From positions 1 to 15,296 of the forward strand of contig CAMYJV010000041.1 of the NCBI GenBank assembly GCA_947258805.1: DNA of 15,296 bases, in the 5' to 3' direction. Under the pieces are notes generated by a model. It did no database searches and was not told the origin of the DNA. It saw only the letters and a program-made list of their open reading frames with translations. The DNA is from an uncultured Gammaproteobacteria bacterium. GTDB taxonomy: Bacteria > Pseudomonadota > Gammaproteobacteria > GCA-2729495. This document shows, one piece after another, positions 2,747-10,029 of the stretch (position 1 is its first letter; each line of letters begins with the position of its first letter). Both the position numbers and the translations under genes were made by a program.

Positions 2747-4105
2747 GTGGACAAAGCCGCAGAGTCCGGCGCGAAACTGGGTTACCTGTGGCTGCAGCCC
2801 GGCGTTACGCGCACCAACGGCAAGGCCTTGCTCTATTGTGGCCTGACCGGCATCCCGGTCCTGGCGTTCATCAATTTTATCCAGCCGGTCATCCTTGAGG
2901 TCATACTCGGTATCCCGAAAGAATCCCAGGGCGCCCTCACCGCCAACCTTGCCGTCGCCCAGGAAGTCATCCTGCTGTTGCTGGTCGGCCCCTTTGGTGC
3001 GTTGGCCGATCGCATTGGCAGGCGGCCGATCGTTGCCTTTGGCTACCTCTTCGTTGCCATGGGTTTCGTCGCCTACCCGTGGGCCGGCTCTGCCGAGCAA
3101 CTGGTTCTGATCAGGGCGCTGTATGCAGTCGGTGCCGCCGCCATCGTGTCGTCGTATTCTGCGCTGCTCGCCGACTACCCGCAGGAACGCTCGCGGGGCA
3201 AGATGGTGGCCCTGCTCGGCGTGCTGAACGGTCTCGGCATCGTTCTGCTCGGCACCGTGGGCGGCAATCTGCCCAAGTGGCTGGCAGCGGCCGGAATCTC
3301 TGAAATGGGCGCCAGTCGGATCGCCATGACGGCCGTCGCGATCCTTTGCGGGGTCAGTGCCCTGATTCTGTTCGCGGGGTTTCGCGGCGGCCGGCCCGGC
3401 ACCGGGCAGCAACGCCAGCCCCTCGCTACCTTGCTGCGGACCGGCCTGGCGGAAGCGCGCAATCCCCGCATCGCACTGGCTTACGGCTCAGCCTTTGCCG
3501 CGCGCGGTGACGTGGTGGTTATCGGCACCTACGTGTCGCTGTGGATCTCCCAGGCCGGCATTGCCCAGGGCATGAGTGCCACCGAGGCCCAGGGTCGGGC
3601 CGGCATCGAGTTCGGTATCGTCAACCTGGCGGCGCTGCTGGCTGCCCCCCTGCTCGGGATTCTTAATGACCGGATTCCGCGCGTCCCGGCGCTGGCCATC
3701 GGCATGTCATTCGCGGCCATCGGCTACCTGGTCTTCGGGCTGCAGACCGATCCGCTGGCCAACTTCGCATTTGTCGCGGCCGTGCTCCTTGGCATCGGGC
3801 AGATGAGCTCGATCCTGGCCGGCCAGACCCTGATATCGCAGGAAGCCCGGCCGGAAATCGCCGGGTCGGTGATCGGGGTCTTCAGTTTCTTTGGCGCCAT
3901 CGGCACGCTGGTCGGCAGCTGGGTGGGCGGACAGCTCTTTGGCCTGTGGCGCCCTGGCGCACCGTTTCTATTAATGGGTGGATTCAACCTCCTGATCTGT
4001 GCAGCCGCCATCTATGTCGGCGCCCGGGAACGCAGCGGCAACAGCGCGGCGAAGGGGGATTTGCTAGCATCCACAGCCGTTGTGAAAGAGGACGGATCAC
4101 CATGA
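2747..4105 (+). CDS. MFS transporter
   Basis: This is a 452-residue inner-membrane protein with about 12 hydrophobic segments, the usual size of a major facilitator superfamily porter. The loop between helices 2 and 3 holds the MFS motif A as GALADRIGRRP (84-94), including the Asp and the basic pair. A central hydrophilic loop near 205-235 divides the two halves. The start is GTG at 2747, preceded by the purine-rich AAGAGAAG at a suitable distance. The stop overlaps the ATG of the MaoC-like gene as ATGA (4102-4105), so the two are translationally coupled. The neighbouring hydratase and crotonase suggest uptake or export of an organic acid metabolised as a CoA ester; the substrate cannot be read from the sequence. 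Confidence 0.9.
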   Translation: MDKAAESGAKLGYLWLQPGVTRTNGKALLYCGLTGIPVLAFINFIQPVILEVILGIPKESQGALTANLAVAQEVILLLLVGPFGALADRIGRRPIVAFGYLFVAMGFVAYPWAGSAEQLVLIRALYAVGAAAIVSSYSALLADYPQERSRGKMVALLGVLNGLGIVLLGTVGGNLPKWLAAAGISEMGASRIAMTAVAILCGVSALILFAGFRGGRPGTGQQRQPLATLLRTGLAEARNPRIALAYGSAFAARGDVVVIGTYVSLWISQAGIAQGMSATEAQGRAGIEFGIVNLAALLAAPLLGILNDRIPRVPALAIGMSFAAIGYLVFGLQTDPLANFAFVAAVLLGIGQMSSILAGQTLISQEARPEIAGSVIGVFSFFGAIGTLVGSWVGGQLFGLWRPGAPFLLMGGFNLLICAAAIYVGARERSGNSAAKGDLLASTAVVKEDGSP

Positions 4106-4575
4106 ACGATGCGGCTGCCGGCGCCCTGGCGAAACTGCAGACCCAGGTGGGCCAGGAGGTTCACTGCAGCGACTGGCTGGAGGTGACCCAGGACCTCGTC
4201 AACCGGTTTGCCGACGCTACCGGAGATCACCAGTGGATTCACGTCGACCCGGACCGAGCCGCGGCCGAATCGCCCTATGGTGGGACAATTGCGCACGGCT
4301 ACCTCACGCTGTCGCTGTATCCGATGCTGCGCGGCTTGATCAACAGCGACAAGCCGATGTTCCCCGGCGTGACCAACGTGATCAACTACGGTCTCAACAA
4401 GTTGCGTTTCCCGAACGCCGTGCGCGTTGGCAAGCGAATTCGTGCCCGGTGCACGCTGGTAAGCGTCGAAGAAACCAAGGGCAGCCTGCAGATCACCGAA
4501 CAGTATGCGGTGGAAGTCGAAGGTGAGGAACGTCCCGCCTGCGTCGCCGAGTGCGTGATGCGCCTTTACTTCTGA
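4102..4575 (+). CDS. MaoC/NodN-like single hot-dog (R)-hydratase
   Basis: The protein is 157 residues, the normal length for a single hot-dog MaoC-type enoyl-CoA hydratase, which adds water to trans-2-enoyl-CoA to give the (R)-3-hydroxy product. The hydratase signature is present: FADATGDHQWIH at about 36-47, with Asp42 and His47 at the catalytic positions, then SPYGGTIAHGYLTL (57-70). The wording of this block is closest to the NodN-like subgroup. The ATG at 4102 overlaps the MFS stop by 4 nt and is preceded by AAGAGGA, so it is preferred over any earlier in-frame start, which would lie inside the transporter gene. The substrate is not deducible. Confidence 0.9.
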   Translation: MNDAAAGALAKLQTQVGQEVHCSDWLEVTQDLVNRFADATGDHQWIHVDPDRAAAESPYGGTIAHGYLTLSLYPMLRGLINSDKPMFPGVTNVINYGLNKLRFPNAVRVGKRIRARCTLVSVEETKGSLQITEQYAVEVEGEERPACVAECVMRLYF

Positions 4576-4586
4576 TTCCTACGACC

Positions 4587-5375
4587 GTGCCCGACCCGCA
4601 CCTGCTGACCAGCCTCCACGACGGGGTGCTGACGATCACGATCAACCGGCCTGACCAACGCAACGCGCTGAGCCTGCGCCTGCTGGATGATCTCGCCGCG
4701 GCCCTCAACTCGCATCGCAATGAGCCCGGACTGCGCGCGGCCATCATCACTGCCACCGGCGATCGCTGTTTCGCCGCCGGCGGGGATCTGAAAGAACTGG
4801 ACGCGGTCCGTACGGAAGCCGACGCGACGGCCATGTCTCAACGCGGCCGAACCGTGCTGGATGCCGTGCGCGAATTTCCGCTCCCGGTGGTGGCCGGCCT
4901 GAACGGCCTGGCGCTGGGTGGCGGCGCCGAGCTGGCGATGGCCTGCGACCTGCGCGTGGCGAGCCAGAACGCCGAAATCGGCTTTCTGCAAGGGCAGCTG
5001 AACCTGACCACCGCATGGGGCGGCGGCATCGACCTGTGCCTGGCCATCGGTACCCACCGGGCCCTGGAGATTCTCGCGTCGGCCCGGCGAATTCCGGCGG
5101 AAGAAGGGCGGGAACTCGGTCTCATCAATTACGTGTGTCCTGCGGATGCGGAACTCGATGCGGGGCTGGCCGAGTTTCTGCGCCCCTGGCTGCAGCGCAG
5201 TCCGGGCGTGCTGCGCGGCTTCAAGTCCATCACGAAGGCTTCGCGGCTGCGCATGCACGCCGCGCTGGCCGCCGTCGAAGAACGGGAATTCGTCAGCACA
5301 TGGGTCCACCAGGACCACTGGGATGCGCTCGAAGCCGCTCAACGCAAACGCGACGGCGGCCGGCGAGGAAATTGA
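4587..5375 (+). CDS. Crotonase-family protein with one catalytic Glu replaced
   Basis: From the GTG at 4587 the product is 262 residues, typical of the enoyl-CoA hydratase/isomerase family. Seen are the N-terminal strand 'VLTITINRP' (14-22), the first oxyanion-hole block FAAGGDLKEL (62-71) and the second block NGLALGGGAELAMACD (106-121). Compared with rat enoyl-CoA hydratase, Glu144 is kept as Glu115, but the 'G-x-P-E' bearing Glu164 reads Q-G-Q, giving Gln137. Glu164 is the acid that protonates the alpha carbon, so classical hydratase activity is doubtful; isomerase, decarboxylase or hydrolase chemistry is possible. An in-frame GTG at 4551 overlaps the MaoC gene; the GTG at 4587 lies 11 nt after its stop and leaves the usual N-terminus. 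Neither has a clear ribosome-binding site. Confidence 0.85.
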   Translation: MPDPHLLTSLHDGVLTITINRPDQRNALSLRLLDDLAAALNSHRNEPGLRAAIITATGDRCFAAGGDLKELDAVRTEADATAMSQRGRTVLDAVREFPLPVVAGLNGLALGGGAELAMACDLRVASQNAEIGFLQGQLNLTTAWGGGIDLCLAIGTHRALEILASARRIPAEEGRELGLINYVCPADAELDAGLAEFLRPWLQRSPGVLRGFKSITKASRLRMHAALAAVEEREFVSTWVHQDHWDALEAAQRKRDGGRRGN

Positions 5376-5376
5376 T

Positions 5377-7044
5377 TCAGTCCTCTTCCCTGCGTAACGC
5401 CCGGCGCAGGATCTTGCCGACGTTTGACTTCGGCAATTCGTCGCGGAACTCCACCTTCTTCGGAATCTTGTAGCGAGCCAGGTGCTCGCGGCAGAACTCG
5501 CGCAAGCCGTGGGCATCGATGCCTGCTTCGGGCTGGGCAACCACGAACGCCTTCACGATTTCACCAGACTCCGTATCCGGCACACCGACAACCGCCGCTT
5601 CCGCAATGTCGTCGTGCAGAGTCAGTATGTTCTCAATTTCGTTCGGGTAGACGTTGAAGCCGGACACCAGGATCATGTCTTTCTTGCGATCGACGATCTT
5701 GAAATAGCCGTTTTCGTTCACGACGGCCACGTCGCCGGTCTTCAGGAACCCATCTTCGGTCATTACGGCCGCCGTTGCCGCCTCGTCGGCCCAGTATCCG
5801 GACATGACCTGCGGCCCCCGCGCGCACAGTTCGCCCGCCTCACCGATTGGCACCTCCCGACCGCTGTCGTCGCGCAAGGATATCTCGGTGCCGGGCAACG
5901 GCAAACCAATGAACCCCGTGTACTCGGTCAGGTCCGGGCGATTGCTGGTGAGTACCGGTGAAGTCTCCGACAGGCCGTAGCCTTCAATGATCTCCGTGCC
6001 CGTCAGTTGTGCCCAGGCCCTGGCGGTAAAATCCATGACGGCCATACCTCCGGCCGACGCGATTTTCACCGACGAGAAATCCAGTTTCGCGAAATCCGGA
6101 TAATCGATCAGGCTCTGGTACAGCGTATTGACGCCGGTAATCGTGTTGAACCGCCACTTGCCCAGCTCGGCAACAAAACTCCGCGTATCACGCGGATCGG
6201 TAATCAATATGTTGTGGCCGCCCAGGTCCAGGTAGGCAAAAAAGTTACAGGTCAGCGCATAGACGTGGTACAGGGGAAGCGCAGTGATGACAATCTCTTT
6301 GCCGGGCACGCAGATCCTGCTGAACCATACGTTGATCTGCGCGACGTTGGCGACCATGTTGCTGTGACTGAGCATCGCACCTTTCGATCGACCGGTCGTA
6401 CCGCCGGTGTACTGCAGAAACGCGAGATCACTCCCGTCGACAGCGGGAGGAACCAGCTGTCGGCGGTCCGCCTTCAGCATGGCCTCAAAATGAATCGCAC
6501 CGGGCAAACGGTAAGACGGGACCAGGCGTTTGATGTAGCGAACCGCGAAGTTTACGAGCTGCCGCTTCGGAAACCCGAGCAGGTCACCGATTTGCGTGAC
6601 AATCACGTGTTCCACCGGAGTCTGGTCAACCACCTCCGCCAGCGTCCTGGCGGCGTTGGCGACGACAACAATAGCCCGTGCCCCGGAATCCTCGAGCTGA
6701 TGGTGCAATTCGCGCGGCGTATACAGGGGGTTGACGTTGACGACCACCAGGCCCGCACGCAAGGTGCCAAGCAGTGCGACAGGGTACTGCAGCAGGTTCG
6801 GCATCATCAGCGCGACGCGATCACCCTTGCGCAGGCCGAGATTGTTCTGCAGAGCCGACGCGAAACTCGCGCTCAGTTCGTCCAGCTCTGCATAGGTGAT
6901 GGTGCGGCCAAAGTTGGTGAAGGCCGGCAAAGAAGAGTAGCGGGCGCAGGCGTCTTCCAGCACCGATACCAGGGATCGTTGCGGGTCCAGCTCGAGATCG
7001 GCCGGCACGCCGGGCGGATAACTGCTGAGCCAGATTTTTTCCAT
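5377..7044 (-). CDS. fadD: Long-chain fatty-acid--CoA ligase
   Basis: The protein is 555 residues, close to E. coli FadD (561). It activates free fatty acids with ATP and CoA via an acyl-adenylate at the inner face of the membrane. The ANL-superfamily motifs are complete: P-loop YTGGTTGRSKG (212-222), GYGLSET (355-361), TGD with Asp438, the hinge VDRKKD (451-456), the 'LVSGFNVYPNEIE' block (459-471) and the C-terminal catalytic Lys544 in KSNVGKILRR. AAGGGAA precedes the ATG at 7044. The gene converges on the crotonase gene with one base between stop codons and no terminator hairpin. It is divergent from the HMG-CoA reductase fusion gene. FadD paralogues with other acyl preferences cannot be excluded. 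Confidence 0.93.
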   Translation of the reverse strand: MEKIWLSSYPPGVPADLELDPQRSLVSVLEDACARYSSLPAFTNFGRTITYAELDELSASFASALQNNLGLRKGDRVALMMPNLLQYPVALLGTLRAGLVVVNVNPLYTPRELHHQLEDSGARAIVVVANAARTLAEVVDQTPVEHVIVTQIGDLLGFPKRQLVNFAVRYIKRLVPSYRLPGAIHFEAMLKADRRQLVPPAVDGSDLAFLQYTGGTTGRSKGAMLSHSNMVANVAQINVWFSRICVPGKEIVITALPLYHVYALTCNFFAYLDLGGHNILITDPRDTRSFVAELGKWRFNTITGVNTLYQSLIDYPDFAKLDFSSVKIASAGGMAVMDFTARAWAQLTGTEIIEGYGLSETSPVLTSNRPDLTEYTGFIGLPLPGTEISLRDDSGREVPIGEAGELCARGPQVMSGYWADEAATAAVMTEDGFLKTGDVAVVNENGYFKIVDRKKDMILVSGFNVYPNEIENILTLHDDIAEAAVVGVPDTESGEIVKAFVVAQPEAGIDAHGLREFCREHLARYKIPKKVEFRDELPKSNVGKILRRALRREED

Positions 7045-7081: not shown

Positions 7082-7222
7082 CGCACCGGGCACAGGTCTT
7101 TGCACCCGGGCCATGGCGCGGTGCGGACAGATGCTGACATGGCGAAGTCGCGGCATTCCTGCTAGTTTTCAGCGCCAACGCGGCGTCGAGCCGCCTCGCG
7201 TCGTCAACCATGGGAGTCAGCC

Positions 7223-9472
7223 GTGGCCGGGTCCAGAATCCCCAACTTCTATCGAATGAGCGTGAGTGAGCGTGTGCGTGCGGTGCACGAGCGCGGCTTG
7301 CTGACGGACGCCGACTTCGAACGCCTGGTTACGGGCGACATGACGCTCGACCTGAGCGCCGCCGATAAAATGATCGAGAACGTGATTGGCGTGCTCGGCA
7401 TGCCGATCGGGCTGGCGCTGAACTTCCTGGTGAATAGCCGCGAGTATGTCGTGCCGCTGGCCGTCGAAGAGCCGTCGATTGTTGCGGCCCTGAGTGCAGC
7501 GGCAAAGCAGGCTCGACCGGCCGGCGGGTTCGCGGCAACCTCCACCGCACCGGTACTGATCGGGCAGATCCAGGTGCTTGACGTGCCGGATCTCCAGCAG
7601 GCAAAAGCCAGGGTGCTGGAGCGCAAGCAGGAAGTTATCGACCTGGCCAACAGCTTCCACCCACGCATGGTCGCACGCGGCGGCGGTGCAGTAGGGCTGG
7701 AAGTTAACAGCTTTCCGATGACCTCGACCGACGGCGAAATGCTGGTCGTGAACCTGCTCGTGGACACACGCGACGCGATGGGCGCCAACCTCGTCAATGG
7801 CATGTGCGAGGGCGTAGCCTCGCTGATTGAAAGCCTGACCGAAGGCAAGGTCTTCCTGCGCATCCTGTCGAACCTGGCGGACCGGGCCCTGGCCTGCGCG
7901 GAAGTCACGCTGCCCGTCGACCAGCTGGGCGGCAAGGGCTTCGCCGGCGAACAGGTGCGCGACGGGGTGATTATCGCGGCCGATTTTGCCGAGGTGGACC
8001 CGTACCGCGCGACGACTCACAACAAAGGCATCATGAACGGTATCGACGCTGTCGCGCTGGCAACGGGCAACGACTGGCGGGCCATCGAAGCCGGGGCTCA
8101 TGCCTACGCGGCCCGGCACGGCCGCTACACCTCACTGTCGCAGTGGTGGAAGGACGAAGACGGCAACCTGCGCGGTCGCCTGGAACTGCCGTTAAAGGTG
8201 GGCATCGTCGGCGGGCCGCTGGAGTCGAACCCGGCCGTGGCCATGAACCTGCGCCTGCTCGGGGTAAAGACAGCCTCCGAACTGGCTGAAGTGATGGCAG
8301 CCGTGGGCCTGGCGCAAAACTTTGCCGCACTTCGGGCCCTGGCAACGGAAGGAATACAGAGCGGGCACATGACGCTGCACGCCCGCAGCGTGGTGAAAGC
8401 GGCCGGCACACCGGCAGATCTGTTCAACGAAGTGCTCGAGGGCCTGCTGCGCAGTGGCGAAATCAAGGTCTGGAGAGCGCGCGAAATACTCGAAGACCTG
8501 CAGGAGCAGCGCAGCAGCGGCCGGCGCGCGAAGCGCACCGAGGTCGAAACAGGCACGGGTTTCGGCAAGGTCATCCTGCTGGGTGAACACGCGGTGGTGT
8601 ACGGACGCCACGCCCTCGCGGTACCGATTCCGCTGGCCATGCGAGCGGTCGTTGAAGACGGCGACCAGGGTGTGCAGCTGATGATTCCGCGCTGGGGTAT
8701 CGAGTACCAGCTGGCCAAGGCGCCAGAACAGCGCCGGTCCTTCGAGCGGGCCGCAGGCGCCATCATGGACCAGCTGGGCCTGGGCGATCGGCCGATTCGT
8801 ATCGAGGTGTTCCCGGACGTACCGCGCGGTATGGGCCTGGGCGGCTCAGCGGCGCTGGCCGTCGCGATCGTTCGCGCCCTGGATCTGCACTTCAAGCTCG
8901 GCCTGTCGGACGAACAGGTGAACCAGCTGGCCTTCGAGTCAGAGCAAATTGCCCACGGTCAGCCCAGTGGCATCGACAACACGGTGGCAACTTATGGCGA
9001 GCCGCTGTTGTTCCGCAAGGGCTCGCCGCCGCTGATTGAACCGCTGAATGTGCCGGTGCCCCTGACCATGGTGGTAGGCATGACGCATCAGGAAGGGCTG
9101 ACCGCGAAGACAGTCGCACGCGTGCGGGAAGCGCGCGACCGCAATCCGCGCCTCTACGAGAAGGTCTTCGACGACATCGATGCGCTGGTCCTGCAGGCCG
9201 TCGCAGCACTGCAGGATCGCGACGTCGCTGCGCTGGGCGAACTGATGAACGTTTGCCAGGGACTCCTGAACGCGCTGCAGGTATCCACGCCGGAACTCGA
9301 GCAGCTGATCGGTATCGCGCGTCGGGCCGGCGCGGTGGGCGCGAAGTTAACCGGAGGCGGTGGCGGGGGCGCCATGGTTGCACTGTGCCAGGACAATGCC
9401 GATTCGGTCCAGGCAGCCATAGAGCGGCGCGGCTTCCGCACCCTGCGCTTCGAAGCGGGATCGGCGCCCTGA
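7223..9472 (+). CDS. Fused class II HMG-CoA reductase and mevalonate kinase
   Basis: One uninterrupted 749-residue frame encodes two enzymes. Residues 1-428 are a full class II HMG-CoA reductase: ENVIG (52-56), AVEEPS with Glu83, DAMGAN (184-189), HNKGIMNGIDAV with Lys268, TGNDWRA with Asp284 and SGHMTLHAR with His382. These match the catalytic Glu83, Lys267, Asp283 and His381 of Pseudomonas mevalonii. A short charged linker (about 429-446) leads to a GHMP kinase: GKVILLGEHAVVYG with Lys449, the ATP loop PRGMGLGGSAA (534-544), SGIDNTVATYG with Asp585 and KLTGGGGGGA (708-717). This is mevalonate kinase by motif set and size (~300 residues). Fusion should convert HMG-CoA to 5-phosphomevalonate. 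P. mevalonii reductase degrades mevalonate, but the fused kinase and following idi point to biosynthesis. The GTG start follows GGGAG at 6 nt; the ATG at 7210 is out of frame. Confidence 0.93.
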   Translation: MAGSRIPNFYRMSVSERVRAVHERGLLTDADFERLVTGDMTLDLSAADKMIENVIGVLGMPIGLALNFLVNSREYVVPLAVEEPSIVAALSAAAKQARPAGGFAATSTAPVLIGQIQVLDVPDLQQAKARVLERKQEVIDLANSFHPRMVARGGGAVGLEVNSFPMTSTDGEMLVVNLLVDTRDAMGANLVNGMCEGVASLIESLTEGKVFLRILSNLADRALACAEVTLPVDQLGGKGFAGEQVRDGVIIAADFAEVDPYRATTHNKGIMNGIDAVALATGNDWRAIEAGAHAYAARHGRYTSLSQWWKDEDGNLRGRLELPLKVGIVGGPLESNPAVAMNLRLLGVKTASELAEVMAAVGLAQNFAALRALATEGIQSGHMTLHARSVVKAAGTPADLFNEVLEGLLRSGEIKVWRAREILEDLQEQRSSGRRAKRTEVETGTGFGKVILLGEHAVVYGRHALAVPIPLAMRAVVEDGDQGVQLMIPRWGIEYQLAKAPEQRRSFERAAGAIMDQLGLGDRPIRIEVFPDVPRGMGLGGSAALAVAIVRALDLHFKLGLSDEQVNQLAFESEQIAHGQPSGIDNTVATYGEPLLFRKGSPPLIEPLNVPVPLTMVVGMTHQEGLTAKTVARVREARDRNPRLYEKVFDDIDALVLQAVAALQDRDVAALGELMNVCQGLLNALQVSTPELEQLIGIARRAGAVGAKLTGGGGGGAMVALCQDNADSVQAAIERRGFRTLRFEAGSAP

Positions 9473-10029
9473 ATACGGTTCACAAAGCGGTCTCCAGCCC
9501 CGGTGAATCGCTGATCCTCGTAGACGAACAGGACCGGGAAATCGGCTTCGCCTCCAAACAGGACTGCCACGCGGGTGAAGGTGTGTTGCACCGGGCTTTC
9601 TCCGCCTTCCTGTTCAATGATGCGGGCGAACTGCTGTTGCAACAACGCAGTGAACTGAAGCCCCTCTGGCCCATGTACTGGTCGAACAGCTGTTGCAGCC
9701 ATCCGCGCGAAGGCGAGAGCGTAGAGACTGCCGTGCATCGCAGGATTCGCGAAGAACTCGGCCTGGATTGCGCGCCGCGTTTTCTCTACAAGTTCAGTTA
9801 CCACGCACACTTTGGCGAGATTGGCTCGGAACGGGAACTCTGCTGGGTATACGCTGGCCGGCACAGCGGTGAAGCGATCAGTCACCCGGACGAAATTGCC
9901 GCAACCCGCTATGTCACGCCAGCTGAGCTGAGTGCAGAAATGGCAGCAGAGCCGGATCGCTTCACGCCCTGGTTCAAGATGGAGTGGCAACGAATTGAAC
10001 GCGACCATCTGAGCGAGATACTCGCCTAG
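9469..10029 (+). CDS. idi: Type I isopentenyl-diphosphate delta-isomerase
   Basis: This Nudix-fold metalloenzyme interconverts IPP and DMAPP. From CTG at 9469 it has 186 residues, close to E. coli Idi (182). Metal and catalytic residues are all visible: His34 and His41 (DCH..., VLH), Cys76 and His78 in NSCCSHP, and Glu121/Glu123 in ERELCWVYA, matching E. coli His25, His32, Cys67, His69, Glu114 and Glu116. The start is the problem. No ATG, GTG or TTG occurs in frame between 9385 and well inside the protein. CTG at 9469 overlaps the upstream stop as CTGA and would be coupled to it. GTG at 9385 adds 28 Arg/Pro-rich residues, and TTG at 9253 more. A -1 frameshift could instead join it to the upstream fusion protein. 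An isomerase is needed in mevalonate-pathway organisms because the route yields only IPP. Confidence 0.88.
   Translation: MNTVHKAVSSPGESLILVDEQDREIGFASKQDCHAGEGVLHRAFSAFLFNDAGELLLQQRSELKPLWPMYWSNSCCSHPREGESVETAVHRRIREELGLDCAPRFLYKFSYHAHFGEIGSERELCWVYAGRHSGEAISHPDEIAATRYVTPAELSAEMAAEPDRFTPWFKMEWQRIERDHLSEILA

Follow-up and report, generated by a model that had tools for sequence, protein, structure and literature searches.

Can two consecutive steps of the mevalonate pathway be carried by one bacterial protein, and what would a cell gain from joining them? The question is raised by a locus of an uncultured gammaproteobacterium (contig CAMYJV010000041.1, GenBank assembly GCA_947258805.1), of which a stretch of 15,296 nucleotides, called the window here, was analysed. 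Positions 7223–9472 of its forward strand are a single open frame of 749 residues, running from GTG to TGA, which the initial annotation had read as 3-hydroxy-3-methylglutaryl-CoA (HMG-CoA) reductase joined to mevalonate kinase. Profile searches bear this out. The NCBIfam model of class II HMG-CoA reductase, TIGR00532, scores 408.6 bits over residues 3–387 (cut-off 259.95). For mevalonate kinase, TIGR00549 matches residues 448–721 with 257 bits (cut-off 163.05), covering model positions 3–276 of 276. Three Pfam domains score above their cut-offs as well (PF00368, residues 14–387; PF00288, 508–591; PF08544, 660–736), and the Pfam scan of the protein found no thiolase domain. As judged from its sequence, the gene is a reductase–kinase fusion with intact active sites, and very probably its product is bifunctional and serves biosynthesis in the mevalonate pathway, a tethered kinase pulling the reductase forward.

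Active sites and conservation

Are both halves equipped for catalysis? Alignment to solved chains assigns residues 1–427 to the reductase (6dio) and places the start of the kinase at about residues 442–448, with a charged linker of the proposed length, under 20 residues, in between. Glu83, Lys268, Asp284 and His382, presumably catalytic in the reductase half as elsewhere in the family, lie where the initial annotation had put them. Together with Lys449 and Asp585 of the kinase half they are invariant in 81/81 aligned fusions (the window and 80 relatives); Gly540 and the glycines at 711–716 are likewise kept in all of them, completing the three GHMP motifs claimed for the kinase. Both halves resemble solved HMG-CoA reductases and mevalonate kinases in sequence and fold, and none of the 50 matches listed is a solved chain covering both. 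The reductases of Pseudomonas mevalonii, Delftia acidovorans and Burkholderia cenocepacia share the fold and the catalytic residues at about 50% identity, whereas they stand alone, without a kinase half. Similarly, the mevalonate kinases of Leishmania major (2hfs) and Methanosarcina mazei (6mde, 4hac) have the same fold and motifs, with 31–33% identity among the matches listed, and are stand-alone proteins, unlike the fused kinase half.

Could two neighbouring genes have been joined by an error of assembly or sequencing? The probability of this is next to nil. A scan of contigs found 299 relatives, of which the best 80 were kept (a selection that favours whole fusions, so that 80/80 is not a rate), and both halves lie in one frame in all 80. 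These come from independent records, and proteins of the same length from other assemblies are 99–100% identical over the 91 residues scored, which rules an artefact out. The frame is open through the linker, with no stop or frameshift. Identity to the window ranges among the kept relatives from 63 to 94% for the reductase half and from 52 to 93% for the kinase half, and falls as low as 55% and 49%, respectively, in more distant members.

How widespread is the fusion? The initial annotation had suggested looking for single proteins that match both profiles, and they are plentiful: a protein search with query words from residues 470–560, under a length rule that excludes stand-alone kinases, gave 567 matches, and each of the 120 listed carries PF00368 and PF00288, a result that speaks to abundance and naming and not to a ratio of fused to unfused proteins. 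The database names shown are ‘hydroxymethylglutaryl-CoA reductase’, often with ‘degradative’, or ‘mevalonate kinase’, each covering one half only; none of those shown, some of them cut off, gives both. The stand-alone reductases fetched, which are part of those listed and at most 54% identical, have no in-frame kinase. From the class to which the nearest complete chromosome (G001) belongs, 369 genomes were drawn evenly, and 10 of them bear the fusion (G001 included; nine copies are whole and one is truncated at the edge of its contig). In the class of the actinobacterial bearer G014 it occurs in 1 of 296 genomes, which is G014 itself, the centre of the draw. The actinobacterial occurrence (L071 in G015 and L076 in G014) looks like transfer, since no other of these 296 genomes bears the fusion; both loci, titled Nakamurella or Actinobacteria, have MvaD and phosphomevalonate kinase (PMK)-like genes besides the fusion. 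One further locus, L072, titled Calditrichaeota, lies on a contig of 4.4 kb and may be misbinned.

Did the fusion arise once? For the reductase, a quick tree with 58 domains places all 39 fused ones on one side of a branch with a value of 97 in the Shimodaira–Hasegawa-like approximate likelihood ratio test (SH-aLRT); the stand-alone reductases adjoining them number nine. The kinase tree, with 49 domains, likewise has its 39 fused members on one side of a branch, at an SH-aLRT of 91, below the mark for strong support. Some branches in these trees are long, and the sets leave out repeat fetches of the same loci, the fused L132–L134 and L171, the cut L140/L170, the contig-edge pieces L168 and L169 of G066 and, for set size, 48 of the 80 fused loci. 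The divergence of the two halves is correlated across 81 fusions (Mantel r 0.917, with 0 of 999 permutations as high). Taken together, both halves would fit a single fusion event.

Linker and mode of action

What could the fusion do that two separate enzymes do not? The N-terminal class II reductase would convert HMG-CoA to mevalonate, probably with NADPH, and the C-terminal GHMP kinase, which a flexible linker attaches to the reductase where its C-terminal domain ends, would use ATP to turn mevalonate into 5-phosphomevalonate. This phosphorylation, which is irreversible, would keep the reversible reductase going forward by trapping mevalonate when it is made, and the fusion would set both activities at 1:1. 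The protein and the isopentenyl-diphosphate isomerase encoded by the adjoining idi gene would come from one transcription unit, in bacteria that, among those tested, mostly lack Dxr. We infer both activities, the use of NADPH, the co-transcription and the forward pull from sequence. An irreversible kinase pulling a reversible reductase is sound chemistry, and a separate kinase would give part of the same effect. Class II reductases act as dimers, and their catalytic histidine sits on a mobile C-terminal domain.

Is mevalonate handed over directly? Mean pairwise identity is 18% in the linker, compared with 71% in the reductase half and 62% in the kinase half, and the alignment stretch containing it is between 23 and 39 residues long, depending on the fusion. 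In one structure model (mean predicted local distance difference test score, pLDDT, 82.3; predicted template modelling score, pTM, 0.54), residues 432–440 have a pLDDT below 50. Since the linker is unconserved, variable in length and in part poorly predicted, and the pTM is low, the data point to a loose tether and not to a fixed tunnel. True channelling would mean that mevalonate passes from site to site apart from the cell pool, with the mobile C-terminal domain carrying the kinase over the reductase. The kinase does sit at the end of the domain bearing the catalytic His382, the fusion is retained in all kept relatives and the halves diverge together; joint divergence is, however, expected for any fused gene, and neither the linker nor a model without a fixed arrangement of the halves suits such a handover. 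We regard channelling as unlikely. The part of the initial annotation that proposed a fusion of consecutive-step enzymes holds, the fusion being conserved and set in a biosynthetic context, and its suggestion of direct passage of mevalonate finds no such backing in the linker or the model.

A plainer account deserves more weight, even if we would not bet on it: the fusion gives equal dosage only, or was fixed by drift, and brings no kinetic gain. The flexible, unconserved linker speaks for this account, as does idi, which is coupled to the fusion by gene overlap only and has stayed unfused. What speaks against it is that one ancient fusion has been retained through deep divergence of both halves, and that no split copy occurs among the kept relatives, although taking the best 80 of 299 favours whole fusions. 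We prefer tethering together with equal dosage over a tunnel.

Cofactor preference

Which cofactor does the reductase half use? The published motifs are Dx(V/L)xxxL for NADH and (H/Y)xSxxxR for NADPH, as given in the available part of a 2026 preprint (PMC13370337) that cites Miller and Kung, and a 2025 study (PMC12292504, seen in part) reports that an Asp to Lys change opens an NADH reductase to NADPH. The P. mevalonii chain has an Asp at the cofactor helix, whereas the fusions have His146 in 81/81, and Arg152 is equally invariant. Use of NADPH by the fusion is likely on this signature. Asp occupies position 146 in 9/9 of the sister stand-alone reductases, and one might suppose that the fusion event brought a change from NADH to NADPH; this idea is weakened by the outgroup, all 10 reductases of which carry an Arg just before GGG. 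Because the outgroup shares this Arg, the NADPH-like state may have been inherited from before the fusion, with the NADH type derived.

The mevalonate pathway in bearer genomes

Is the fusion biosynthetic, despite the ‘degradative’ label? The nearest complete chromosome, G001, has farnesyl diphosphate synthase, MvaD, a PMK-like kinase and a divergent HMG-CoA synthase in one cluster; the fusion is its sole match to the window protein, with no second copy of either half, and it has neither Dxr nor IspH. MvaD is above cut-off in 16/16 fusion genomes. Dxr, by contrast with the control UppS (found in 48/50; the control covers these 50 and not the first 16), is above cut-off in 3/16 and 0/50 genomes, that is, in 3/66. 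The three genomes of the first 16 with Dxr also have IspH above cut-off, and in another of these genomes a 33-residue piece of Dxr scores below it. As Dxr and IspH are mostly missing while UppS is found, the methylerythritol phosphate (MEP) route appears to have been lost from the majority of the bearers tested. Because G001 has the other mevalonate genes and no Dxr or IspH, and Dxr is so rare across the set, the fusion looks biosynthetic.

The label raises the opposite option, that the enzyme is catabolic and lets the cell grow on mevalonate. The best model for the reductase half, TIGR00532, is indeed a ‘degradative’ equivalog, and the closest solved reductases are those of P. mevalonii, Delftia and Burkholderia. 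Against this stand the fused kinase, an idi gene next to the fusion in 80/80 relatives, the MvaD and Dxr counts given above and a cofactor helix without the Asp of the NADH enzymes. A catabolic role is judged very improbable from the gene context (the idi, MvaD and Dxr counts).

Several observations nevertheless weigh against the biosynthetic reading. The PMK-like gene is below the TIGR01220 cut-off, with 0/16 genomes above it, and the same model also matches the fusion below cut-off. The HMG-CoA synthase of G001 reaches 163.7 bits with TIGR01835, compared with a cut-off of 360.35, and HMG-CoA synthase (PF01154) is not detected in 20/66 fusion genomes. Dxr is kept in three of the 66. The Ser of the published NADPH motif is replaced in the fusions (by Arg in 38, Lys in 26 and Asn in 17 of 81). 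Finally, we infer the pathway of the window species itself from its relatives.

A second source of HMG-CoA?

Where would HMG-CoA come from in genomes without a synthase? PF01154 detects the enzyme in 46/66 fusion genomes; those in which it does not are G009–G012, G014–G016, G684, G700, G712, G713, G716–G721, G723, G724 and G726. Of the first 16 genomes, seven lack a match to PF01154, and the probes PF08540 and G001 synthase find no synthase in those seven either. It is present in 32/33 genomes without MvaD or PMK-like genes upstream of the fusion and in 11/29 with them, with four undecided. In the 20 genomes without detected synthase, mostly of the latter kind, HMG-CoA lyase reaches at least 368 bits in 16, is weaker in two (287 and 303 bits) and appears as contig-edge pieces only in the other two. 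Leucine breakdown might, on these gene contents, supply HMG-CoA where synthase is undetected. There are limits to reading the absence of synthase in this way: the drafts are perhaps incomplete, a divergent synthase could escape, and the lyase is as common beside the synthase, being above cut-off in 62/66 genomes and failing to separate those with synthase from those without.

In Marinobacter gelidimuriae the neighbours of the lyase include a hydratase and carboxylase-like genes, an arrangement like that of leucine breakdown. Within Wenzhouxiangella, a synthase is detected in W. limi and none in W. sediminis. The solved protein that best matches the kinase half (8558–9469) by sequence is the L. 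major mevalonate kinase (145 bits), and trypanosomes are reported to route leucine into sterols (PMC5993337, seen in part); that the two coincide is possibly chance.

Gene neighbourhood

What surrounds the fusion? The features of the window are collected in Table 1.

Table 1. Location of the fusion gene, its parts and its neighbours in the window
Feature	Position	Strand	Details
Fusion gene: HMG-CoA reductase, linker, mevalonate kinase	7223..9472	+	Frame, NCBIfam, Pfam, relatives fused
GGGAG, likely ribosome-binding site	7212..7216	+	6 bases 5' of GTG start
Class II HMG-CoA reductase half	7223..8503	+	Residues 1–427: Glu83, Lys268, Asp284, His382
Cofactor helix HPRMVAR	7658..7678	+	Residues 146–152, NADPH-like signature
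Charged linker	8504..8557	+	About residues 428–445 (about 18, fewer than 20); unconserved, partly disordered
Mevalonate kinase half	8558..9469	+	Residues 446–749: Lys449, GLGGSAA 538–544, Asp585, glycine run 711–716
idi, type I isopentenyl-diphosphate isomerase	9469..10029	+	Overlaps fusion stop codon; probable start CTG at 9469
MFS (major facilitator superfamily) transporter	2747–4105		Top NCBIfam hits, to the magnetosome transporters MamH and MamZ, fall short of their cut-offs
MaoC-type dehydratase	4102–4575		Upstream of fusion
Enoyl-CoA hydratase	4551–5375		Upstream of fusion
FadD-like ligase	5377–7044		Upstream of fusion

GGAG and a GTG start are also found in the nearest relatives, L034 and L001. 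In the window as in every kept relative, the idi gene, in the window matched by NF002995 (167 bits, cut-off 127) and TIGR02150 (154 bits, cut-off 105.8), lies directly 3' of the fusion and on its strand, at distances from a 23-base overlap to a 93-base gap. In the window no ATG, GTG or TTG lies near its expected start, and a CTG overlaps the fusion stop (CTGA). An in-frame codon overlaps the fusion stop at this place in relatives too (ATG in 17, GTG in 14, TTG in 3 and CTG in 3 of 80), and since such start-type codons recur there, translation of the window idi probably begins at CTG and is coupled to that of the fusion. This start-codon observation spans positions 9469–9472 of the window and the loci L001, L034 and L042.

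A PMK-like gene, mostly with MvaD, lies within 3.5 kb upstream of the fusion in 43/80 loci; in 33/80 neither probe matched within that distance, and 4/80 have too little upstream DNA. The window is of the kind without these genes locally and has acyl-CoA-type genes upstream. MaoC-type dehydratase, enoyl-CoA hydratase and FadD-like ligase recur near the fusion, their clusters occurring in 19, 22 and 41 loci. A squalene synthase-like gene is found near the fusion in L056, and members of the same cluster in L054 and L061; L061 also has a squalene–hopene cyclase and an HpnG-type gene nearby.

Relation to known systems and significance

Has such a protein been described before? The known comparison is MvaE of Enterococcus faecalis, a fusion of acetoacetyl-CoA thiolase and HMG-CoA reductase (PMC13001223, seen in part). 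Like MvaE, the protein encoded in the window is a natural fusion of a class II reductase with an enzyme of another mevalonate-pathway step. Unlike MvaE, whose thiolase catalyses the first step, not next to that of the reductase, it has, on the C-terminal side of the reductase, the kinase that acts directly after it. For Wenzhouxiangella, loci of which are among our relatives and bear the fusion, a mevalonate pathway has been published (PMC7691419); ‘HMG-CoA’ is missing from the main text of that paper, the part available, which therefore describes no fusion in those words. The accessible text of the 2026 survey PMC13001223 names the thiolase–reductase protein, and uses ‘fusion’ once (for IspDF) and ‘fused’ never. 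In that of the preprint PMC13370337, which arranges 6,924 bacterial reductases in a network, neither ‘fused’ nor ‘kinase’ occurs. Searches of the open-licence literature gave no description of a reductase–kinase fusion, in keeping with the initial annotation, which knew of no characterised one.

What does the finding mean? The reductase is the rate-limiting step of the mevalonate pathway according to the available part of PMC13001223, and here an old natural link would join it to the next step, so that tethering and channelling could be compared on one protein and its separated halves. Names that cover one half, such as ‘degradative’ reductase, could lead name-based gene surveys to miss the kinase or to misread the pathway as catabolic. 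The fusion marks gammaproteobacteria, many of them little studied, in which the mevalonate pathway appears to have taken the place of the MEP route. In some of them no synthase is detected; these last touch on a gap that the 2026 survey, in its available part, leaves open for Legionella. It is tempting, if still doubtful, to go one step further: one ancient fusion may mark the gammaproteobacteria that moved from the MEP to the mevalonate route, and mevalonate trapping may let isoprenoid synthesis tap a common pool of HMG-CoA that leucine breakdown, and not a synthase, would supply in some bearers.
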